In this document: piece after piece, positions 2,081 through 35,387 of the stretch
Numbering within the stretch: the first letter of the stretch is position 1
Layout of the letters: every line of letters starts with the position of its first letter
DNA from: Candidatus Woesearchaeota archaeon
GTDB taxonomy: Archaea; Nanobdellota; Nanobdellia; Woesearchaeales; GCA-2687795
Length of the DNA: 37,616 nt
Direction of reading: 5' to 3'
NCBI GenBank assembly: GCA_030753365.1
Contig: JASMCJ010000050.1
Span: 1 to 37,616 of the forward strand
Position numbers and translations under genes: made by a program
Notes under the pieces: model-generated
The model's database searches: none
Told to the model about the DNA's origin: nothing
The model's input: only the letters and a program-made list of their open reading frames with translations

Positions 2081-2300
2081 ATAGCAAACGCACTAAATAT
2101 TCGTACATCAAATATGCGTTTGCTATCATAGAAATTGTTATACAATTTCTAGGATCCTAAGAAAAACCAAAGGTTTTTCTGGGACACTGAGAAACTTCTT
2201 AGAGTTTCTGGTGTGCTCAGAAATGTTTTGCATTTCTGACAAACCAAAAAATATGCAAGACTGATTTTTCAGTTCACCAGAAATTCCTATAGAATTTCTG
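2081..2300. repeat. Tandem array of short hairpins (perfect and near-perfect inverted repeats)
   Basis: Inverted repeats read by eye: 2081-2092/2115-2126, 2129-2138/2142-2151, 2160-2168/2172-2180, 2190-2196/2203-2209, 2217-2225/2231-2239, 2260-2264/2269-2273, 2278-2286/2292-2300. Confidence 0.85.
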
Positions 2301-2413
2301 CGTGTGTTAGAAGAATTAAAAAATATTATGTTCTTAGTTCTTCCGCTATATTTATATAAAAATTAATAAATAACTGGTATATATCTATTATAAAACATAT
2401 ATAACAAACTAGA

Positions 2414-2976: not shown

Positions 2977-3076
2977 CGAAAATCCTTATAGATTTTCGGT
3001 CATTACAACTTGGACAGAAAGCCGTAGAATATTAAGCCCAAGTTGTAATAAAACGAAAACCTTAAAAAGGGTTTTC
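2977..3076. repeat. Second hairpin cluster downstream of KH gene
   Basis: CGAAAATC/GATTTTCG (2977-2984/2991-2998), ATTACAACTTGG/CCAAGTTGTAAT (3002-3013/3038-3049), GAAAACC/GGTTTTC (3055-3061/3070-3076). Confidence 0.8.
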
Positions 3077-21880: not shown

Positions 21881-21964
21881 CGCAGCAAGCTGCGGGGTAT
21901 TTTTAGTATTTAGTTTGCGTATTAAGCCGATGCAAGCATCGGGGTATAAAACCCAAACTAAATA
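21881..21964. repeat. REP-like double hairpin, second copy nested in an 11-bp inverted repeat
   Basis: CGCAGC-AA-GCTGCG-GGGTAT (21881-21900) and CCGATGC-AA-GCATCGG-GGTAT (21927-21947); outer TATTTAGTTTG/CAAACTAAATA (21907-21917/21954-21964). Confidence 0.75.
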
Positions 21965-33569: not shown

Positions 33570-35387
33570 ATGAAAAAATTAATAGCAATATTGGTGATGT
33601 TTTTATTTGTGATGACAGGATTTGCACAGGGTGAGGCAGATCTGAGTACAAACTTAGGATCCAGTTTGGATTCATCTACAGGAGATGATACAGATAGCGA
33701 TGATTCTGATAGTAATGATAGGGGAGACATTGTATGTACAGCGCAGTATGATCCTGTTTGTGGTGCAGATGGAAAGACTTACTCTAACAGATGCATGGCA
33801 AATGCTGCTAGTGCTGAAATAAAATGCAGTTCAAAATGTCCTTGTGAAGATACTTCAGAAGATATCAGTGTAACTGACTTGTATACTGCTGCATCTGACA
33901 TATTTCCTAAAGATATTAGTGAGAGTGATAAGGTTTCTATTAATAAAAGGTGCATTAGTTGGTTAAAAGAAAAATATCCCAGAGCACGTGAAGCAAGAAT
34001 TGTCACTGCATGCGTAAAAATAATTACAAGGGGAGCTGTCCGAAGAGTTGAGACAACTGAAACAAAGACGGTAAGAACTGTGAAATCTGGGGATATAACT
34101 TCTGATCAGGCTGTTGCAAGGTTCAAGAACATCAACGAAGATCAAAGAACAAAACTTACGAAGTTTAAGGAAAACAGGCAAGAAAAGATTTCTAAGCTTA
34201 AAGATGCTCAAATTACAAAACTGGCTAATGTAAAGTCTGAAAGACTAAGAAAGATGACTAATCTTGATGAAGCTAAGCTTTCAAAGATAGCAGGTCTTGA
34301 TGAAAGACAATTAACTAAATTATCTGTTATGAACAGAGAAAAGGTCAAAGAGTTTGCTAAGCTTGATGAATCTCAAATCAAGGCAAAACTTACAAAATTA
34401 AAAGTAAAGAAAGTAAAGAAAGTTGACTTGTTCAGAAAAAGGGTTGTAGCTGAAACTAAGTTGAAGGCTGCTAATCAAAGGTATAATTCTGCTAAAGAAA
34501 AGTTCATCAATGCTGAAAAAGTTTACAAAGAAAGAAGAAAGAATTTCTTGGATGTTAAAGAGAAACTAAAGGCATGTAAAAGCATTGATAGTGAGGAATG
34601 CACCCAACTGAACGCAGATGCATTAGCTCATGCTAAAGAGCTTTCAATAAAAGCTGCTGAAATGGCTATAGAACATCTTAACAAAATCAAAGAAAGCATT
34701 GAAGCTAATGATGACCTTGAGAAAGAGGATGCTTCTAATATGATTGCAAGCATTGATAATGCAATTTCCGAACTGGAAGCTGCTAAAGCTAATGTTGAAG
34801 CCGCAGAAACAAAGGAAGAGGTTAAGAAAGCTGCTGCTGCTATTAACAAAGCCTGGAGAAAACATTCTGCTAAAGCAAAGAGGTATGCTGCAAGGGTTGT
34901 TCATGCAAAGGTTGGAGAGATTATAACAAGGAGCGAGCAACTTGAGAGAAAGCTTGACAGAATCCTTACAAAGATGGAAAAGGATGGCATTGAAGTTGAA
35001 GGTATCGATGTAAAAGTAGATGCTTTCAGCGCTAAAGTAGAAGAGGCTAAAGAGTTGTATAAACAAAGCAGAGAAAAGTTCATTGAAGCTAAGACTAGTG
35101 AAAGTGAAGCAACTGTTCAGGAAGCCAGAAGATTAGCTAATGCTGCACACAAATCCTTGGTTGAAGCCCATAAGATATTAATGGATATCTTCAAGAGCAT
35201 TAAACAGGCTGGCGGCAGTGTTGATGTTGAAGAAGAAGAAGATGAAGTAGAAGTTATAGAAGAACAGGAGGAAGTAGAAGAGGAAGAAGAGTTGATTGAG
35301 GAAGAACCAGAGGAAGTTGATGATGAAGATACAGATGATGTTGATGAAGAGGAAGAAGAAACAGATGAAGATGACACTGAAGAATAA
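33570..35387 (+). CDS. Secreted Kazal-domain / hendecad coiled-coil protein with acidic C-terminus
   Basis: Signal peptide MKKLIAILVMFLFVMTGFAQG; Kazal-like CTAQYDPVCGADGKTYSNRCMANAASAEIKCSSKCPC; 11-residue repeats; Glu/Asp-rich tail; SD-like GGAGG. Confidence 0.85.
   Translation: MKKLIAILVMFLFVMTGFAQGEADLSTNLGSSLDSSTGDDTDSDDSDSNDRGDIVCTAQYDPVCGADGKTYSNRCMANAASAEIKCSSKCPCEDTSEDISVTDLYTAASDIFPKDISESDKVSINKRCISWLKEKYPRAREARIVTACVKIITRGAVRRVETTETKTVRTVKSGDITSDQAVARFKNINEDQRTKLTKFKENRQEKISKLKDAQITKLANVKSERLRKMTNLDEAKLSKIAGLDERQLTKLSVMNREKVKEFAKLDESQIKAKLTKLKVKKVKKVDLFRKRVVAETKLKAANQRYNSAKEKFINAEKVYKERRKNFLDVKEKLKACKSIDSEECTQLNADALAHAKELSIKAAEMAIEHLNKIKESIEANDDLEKEDASNMIASIDNAISELEAAKANVEAAETKEEVKKAAAAINKAWRKHSAKAKRYAARVVHAKVGEIITRSEQLERKLDRILTKMEKDGIEVEGIDVKVDAFSAKVEEAKELYKQSREKFIEAKTSESEATVQEARRLANAAHKSLVEAHKILMDIFKSIKQAGGSVDVEEEEDEVEVIEEQEEVEEEEELIEEEPEEVDDEDTDDVDEEEEETDEDDTEE

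Follow-up and report, generated by a model that had tools for sequence, protein, structure and literature searches.

A dense run of short hairpins between two genes of a Candidatus Woesearchaeota archaeon raises the question of what such an array is, and why its stem tips differ from one hairpin to the next and yet stay complementary. The initial annotation of this DNA, a 37,616-nt stretch referred to here as the window, described about seven hairpins at 2081–2300, and we found all of them in place. The first has the 12-bp arms and 22-nt loop that had been reported, and five share AGAAA/TTTCT bases (2129–2151, 2160–2180, 2190–2209, 2217–2239 and 2278–2300), with the different but complementary tips also noted there (in coordinate order, ATTGT/ACAAT, AACC/GGTT, ACT/AGT, TG/CA and TTC/GAA). 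A weaker seventh hairpin, ACTGA/TCAGT, lies at about 2261–2274 between these. On their outer side the array hairpins carry conserved feet, such as ATCCTA...GGGACAC. No likely CDS is overlapped, in agreement with the annotation, and the array sits between two divergent genes. To its left is an OapA/ArvA GTPase gene on the minus strand (start about 2002), followed by OapB and OapC in an OapC-OapB-OapA operon (528–2002); to its right a KRR1/PNO1-like KH protein gene on the plus strand (start 2414) is followed by topoisomerase VI B.

Shuffled sequence of the same composition, a control that the initial annotation had named, is far less stable than the real array: the 260-nt array region has an MFE of -86 kcal/mol, against -48.1 +/- 4.6 for dinucleotide shuffles (z -8.2, 0/200 shuffles). 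When we scanned 816 kb of the ~0.9-Mb genome for hairpins with a stem of at least 8 bp and a loop of 3–8 nt, the array was the sole site with four hairpins within 220 nt, and the same scan of a first-order Markov-shuffled genome gave zero hairpin triples. The array is thus the densest hairpin cluster in the part of the genome scanned.

Table 1. Hairpin features of the window
Feature	Position	Strand	Details
Accessory hairpin	2081..2126	.	12-bp arms ATAGCAAACGCA/TGCGTTTGCTAT, 22-nt loop
Accessory hairpin	2129..2151	.	TAGAAATTGT-TAT-ACAATTTCTA
Core two-hairpin unit, plus orientation	2155..2213	+	model R1, alignment A1
Linking hairpin	2217..2239	.	TCAGAAATG-TTTTG-CATTTCTGA
Second core unit, inverted and degenerate	2239..2304	-	model R1, 38 bits on the minus strand, 2238–2309
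Second, smaller cluster of three hairpins	2977..3076	.	between the KH and topoisomerase VI B genes

The core unit and its fold

The array is built from a dispersed element with a 56–60-nt core of two hairpins, TCCTR-[AGAAA..TTTCT]-GGGA (H2) and CAC-[hairpin]-GTG (H3). Similar hairpins, for which a pattern search had been proposed, were found elsewhere: CTRAGAAA-N(8,22)-TTTCTGG occurs in 97 of the 292 genomes of the order, with 38 cases against 0 for the reversed control in the richest genome (G190), and 18/2, 11/0, 10/0 and 9/0 in G014, G041, G056 and G120. The longer pattern ATCCTR-AGAAA-N(4,22)-TTTCT-GGGACAC has 16 exact matches in GTDB, 16/16 in Woesearchaeota/Nanoarchaeota records. Among the intergenic hairpins of this genome and of its genus-mate G001, the linkers CATCCTA-hp-GGGA are common to contig C31 of the former and C32 of the latter around different stems (hp, hairpin), and G001 C3 has the pattern CACTR-hp-GGTGTGC-hp-CA. 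The foot CT[AG]-stem-GG with a further basal stem was found in 13 cases, 11 of them intergenic; ten of twelve control feet gave 0–5 cases, of which no more than one was intergenic, and the other two, composed of AT only, gave 8 and 18. No Rfam family matched the hairpins at the gathering threshold, and at E up to 5 only chance-level matches appeared.

Our covariance model of the core, R1, matched 139 of the 292 genomes of the order at E <= 1e-3, a count in which weak matches are uncertain because calibration was short. At E <= 1e-5 in a phylum-wide sample it matched 42 genomes of the order (the one studied here included) and three of the same class, with none beyond that class. Within the studied genome, matches are clear on contigs C31 and C43 and at window 2150–2217 (+), the C31 and window copies having been in the training alignment; they are weaker on C69, C24 and C28 and at window 2238–2309, where the minus strand scores slightly over the plus strand.

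The window array is best read as a composite of one plus unit, one degenerate inverted unit and the extra hairpins at 2081–2126, 2129–2151 and 2217–2239 (Table 1). In the plus unit, which scores 60 bits against R1 (E 7e-9) as a copy that is itself part of the training alignment, H2 (2155–2184) reads TCCT-(A bulge)-AGAAAAACC..GGTTTTTCT-GGGA and H3 (2185–2213) reads CAC-TG-AGAAACT..AGTTTCT-G-GTG. The inverted unit contains hairpin 2278–2300 (CAGAAATTC..GAATTTCTG) and a decayed AAAAA..TTTTT hairpin between ACAAACC and CAGTTCA, linkers that surround other stems on contigs C28 and C56 of the same genome. The linkers GGTGTGC..CA of hairpin 2217–2239 enclose another stem in G001 C3 (TCAAGAACCC..GGGTTCTTGA), and hairpin 2129–2151 with its neighbour gives a weak minus-strand match to R1 (27.7 bits, 2122–2182). 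The smaller cluster, which includes a 12-bp stem with a 24-nt loop, has no match to R1. Composite clusters are known among REPs/BIMEs, and the window array is of the same kind.

Stem covariation in relatives, which the annotation had suggested checking on an aligned fold, is evident. Alignment A1 consists of 15 cores, including close relatives, and because these were picked by their feet, foot invariance partly reflects search selection. The two-hairpin structure pairs 95.8% of the cells in A1 and has 12 pairs with double changes; double-changed cells number 45, against 12.8 in shuffles and at most 10 in slid structures, and RNAalifold returned the identical two-hairpin fold unprompted. Every core has TCC/GGA and the A-rich lower stem (AGAAA/TTTCT) and, at the foot of H2, a T.G wobble, whose position is the same in 15/15, together with a bulged purine; the upper stem tips and loop vary between copies, and the tips compensate. 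The 16 GTDB matches all pair for 3–5 further pairs at bases outside the search pattern and show eight distinct stem tips, a degree of pairing reached by shuffled interiors in 2.6% of trials.

Symmetric variation of this kind had been attributed to selection for secondary structure or to a hairpin-recognising factor. The covariation is genuine, lies on a conserved fold and recurs in relatives, and the recognising factor was in our judgement a good guess; the part that did not hold is selection at the window locus, where the site is empty in G001. The structure-selection reading is also incomplete in that covariation could partly stem from hairpin-templated copying: template switching or hairpin-primed copying would rewrite one arm from the other and give perfect stems without function, a process compatible with mobility that we consider a minority possibility. 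Loop inversions among otherwise near-identical copies of one clade, where the H2 loop is TTC in L247 and GAA in L252/L255 and the H4 loop is TTCA in L246 and TGAA in L253/L255/L247, are suggestive only of arms that may have been rewritten in this way. They amount, however, to about three events, and such copying leaves the constancy of the feet and bulge unexplained. Apparent loop flips between orthologues of the studied genome and G001 proved to be contig-orientation artefacts.

Filled and empty sites

Insertion was deduced by comparing filled and empty sites, and by this comparison the units appear to insert cleanly, between or inside genes. In a gene on G001 C12, the empty sequence GAGCA|CATTC has become GAGCA-[exactly 60 nt, H2+H3]-CATTC, a 20-residue in-frame insert relative to the orthologue in the studied genome, with no target duplication visible between the two. 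A 20-residue insert in a metallophosphoesterase (L242), seen against the homologues in G000 and G001, coincides with a unit, and a HicA-like gene is interrupted by another, its pieces having been looked at separately. The in-CDS unit of L215 is doubtful, and that of L241 was rejected as a start-codon artefact, the unit lying just upstream of an enolase gene. Between genes, contig C31 has a filled site whose counterpart on G001 C10 is empty, a gap on C28 measures 235 bp against 1 bp in G001, and a roughly 200-bp four-hairpin copy upstream of the KH gene in L252 occupies a site that is empty in L089. Near-identical copies with different flanks are present at different sites within one clade; orthology of the C31 and G001 C32 copies was ruled out, since gene orthology assigns them to different sites.

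The four-hairpin version of the element, roughly 200 bp long, is found in one clade (L222–L225, L245–L255), where it follows closely on stop codons, carries ATAA at either end and occasionally has inverted loops. The sense orientation of these copies in nearly all readable cases, together with the strong covariation and the T.G wobble fixed in 15/15 cores, would suit a functional structured RNA (a small RNA, or an mRNA leader or trailer module) acting through hairpins whose stems are selected at each site. Against this, unit orientation relative to neighbouring genes is mixed elsewhere, units occur inside coding sequence, the genus pair has no common site among those checked for both states, and Rfam gave no match; we consider a structured RNA unlikely. 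Given that units are scattered in both orientations with respect to genes and also insert into coding sequence, we regard the hairpin family as a mobile repeat, and not a local regulatory or small RNA, with considerable confidence. Some copies may nevertheless be kept by selection rather than reflect recent movement.

At the window locus, G001, the sole genus-mate compared (the GTDB scan lists one of its contigs under Candidatus Woesearchaeota ARS1419), shares the divergent gene pair, with OapA 90% identical, but has no array in the intergenic region; homology to that region stops at about hairpin 2081–2126. The KH-topoisomerase VI B gap is 192 bp in the window against 49 bp in G001, where the smaller hairpin cluster is missing. 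None of the analyses made gave an indication of local function for the array, most probably a neutral passenger lodged between two divergent promoters. The OapA-KH pairing is common to the window and G001; the two genes are widely separated in G011, a complete genome.

In Haloferax, oapABC adjoins a replication origin, and OapA, OapB and OapC adjoin the array, which could thus be taken for an origin element linked to these genes. This we find hardly credible. Orc1/Cdc6 is on another contig, the array is missing beside oapA in G001, and in the loci of other relatives searched no unit stands next to oapA or KH, the one match (in L140) being about 1.2 kb off; window GC skew tracks gene strand, without an origin signature. 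The marks of an archaeal origin, namely adjacent orc1/cdc6, conserved position and a skew change, are therefore missing. The oapABC operon (now ArvCBA), reported beside an origin in Haloferax, is moreover now assigned to archaeal vesicle formation as ArvABC (PMC10927574). Intrinsic terminators or 3'-end hairpins are highly improbable as well: the hairpins are short with T-rich 3' arms, and intergenic hairpins are ~2.1-2.6-fold over shuffles in this genome, but divergent, tandem and convergent gaps show this enrichment to a similar extent, units also lie inside genes, and the window array itself stands between two divergent genes.

Known systems and the route of movement

Rickettsia palindromic elements (RPE) are short palindromes that occur in intergenic DNA as well as in frame within coding regions. 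The Woesearchaeota element shares with them intergenic and in-frame coding copies (the L242 and G001 C12 genes, 20 residues each); RPE belong to different organisms and probably differ in sequence, and the likeness of our 56–60-nt hairpin pair to them is one of features. Integron attC sites are recognised in the form of a folded strand that has extrahelical bases and stems that vary with compensation, and in these respects the element can be likened to them. The RYYYAAC/GTTRRRY core boxes of attC are, however, missing from the conserved columns of A1, and no cassette arrays as in integrons were seen.

The REPINs and BIMEs of bacteria, REP doublets mobilised by RAYT/TnpA-REP transposases, resemble the element in their short palindromic units, mobile doublets, inverted pairs and clusters (PMC3116915, PMC3733652), and REPINs have conserved ends with compensatory change in the inner hairpin (PMC3116915). 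Like the element, they are mostly extragenic with some intragenic copies, and the dispersed multi-copy palindromic unit with mobile doublets that characterises REPs/REPINs was found here. A REPIN is nevertheless one long hairpin mobilised by a RAYT, whereas the Woesearchaeota element has two side-by-side hairpins with a conserved foot carrying the T.G and bulge, and no RAYT was identified for it; a GTAG- or CGTC-tagged REP was rejected, as no such tag stands in the conserved columns of A1. Minimal IS200/IS605 derivatives (end hairpins/PATE-type repeats) also have two hairpins, extrahelical bases and no expected target duplication. For this genome we rejected an IS200/IS605 end as direct source, its Y1 loci having other end hairpins; the feet of its own IS200/IS605-like end hairpins (ATACCCCGATGCTTGCATCGGCTTAATAC, at least 11 copies) differ from those of the core unit.

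By analogy, then, the element would work like a REPIN or RPE and, lacking the REP tag and an identified RAYT, would be a variant among miniature palindromic mobile elements. The window array is accordingly, in our view, probably a composite of such a REPIN/RPE-like miniature mobile palindromic element of Woesearchaeota. Searches of open-access literature for palindromic or REP-type repeats in DPANN/Nanoarchaeota/Woesearchaeota gave no description of the element, which is apparently undescribed in DPANN so far.

Copies would insert singly or as part of larger assemblies that also contain additional hairpins and inverted partners. Their feet, their bulge and their A-rich lower stem would stay constant while the upper stem and loop drift and remain complementary. 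Movement may proceed via a folded single strand, with a trans-acting enzyme recognising the constant feet, most plausibly a single-strand transposase of the HUH type, such as serves REPINs and IS200/IS605 ends; with recognition at the feet of the folded strand, only structure would be constrained in the tips. The resemblance to HUH systems lies in the constant feet, the compensating tips, unit ends at hairpin bases and the lack of visible target duplication. No autonomous relative or mobilising gene flanked by the core hairpins was found among the genomes read directly. Y1 (PF01797) is present in 36 of 64 genomes with at least five matches and in 70 of the 228 others (p 4e-4), a modest association; 15 genomes with at least eight matches have no Y1 match, some of them 96–99% complete. 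Because only IS200-class Y1 enzymes have been reported in Archaea (PMC6006769), the Y1 genes examined in this genome are flanked by hairpins other than the core unit, and the statistical link is modest with exceptions, we put an HUH-type transposition step at somewhat below an even chance. More tentatively, a minimal mobile unit might be made up of just the two adjacent hairpins (56–60 nt) and move other than by known REP/Y1 pairs, through another enzyme or through hairpin-primed copying in which the stems are rewritten as well. Such a unit would have reached a whole order of archaea and could lengthen proteins by in-frame segments of 20 residues.

A REPIN-like family across an order of Woesearchaeota would bring the DPANN archaea within the range of miniature hairpin mobile DNA, and R1 provides a handle for annotating it. 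It also warns that covarying hairpin arrays in these genomes need not be regulatory RNAs, and offers a natural test of stem covariation by selection versus hairpin-templated copying, as well as of how very reduced genomes gain coding segments.

Other repeats and genes

An unrelated second dispersed hairpin lies at about 21927–21955 of the window; its core, GTATTAAGCCGATGCAAGCATCGGGGTAT, has at least 11 identical copies in the genome. On contig C72 the same sequence neighbours a fragment of a Y1 transposase, which suggests a repeat derived from an IS200/IS605 end. The window further encodes (33570–35387) a 605-aa archaeal protein with a Kazal-type protease-inhibitor domain (PF00050, E 3e-9), unexpected in DPANN. 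In G001, ten contigs (C2, C4, C5, C11, C17, C20, C25, C27, C37 and C38) end in one and the same double hairpin, CAAAGGAAAGTTACTTCCTTTG / CCCCGCACTTTAGTGCGGGG, a further multi-copy repeat, at which the assembly probably broke. Large branched palindromic repeats, with an outer stem GCTCAG..CTGAGC around several hairpins, are present at G001 C12:17135–17425 and C9:3175–3410, where the studied genome has gaps of only 12 and 41 bp; these are further structured repeats of other types.
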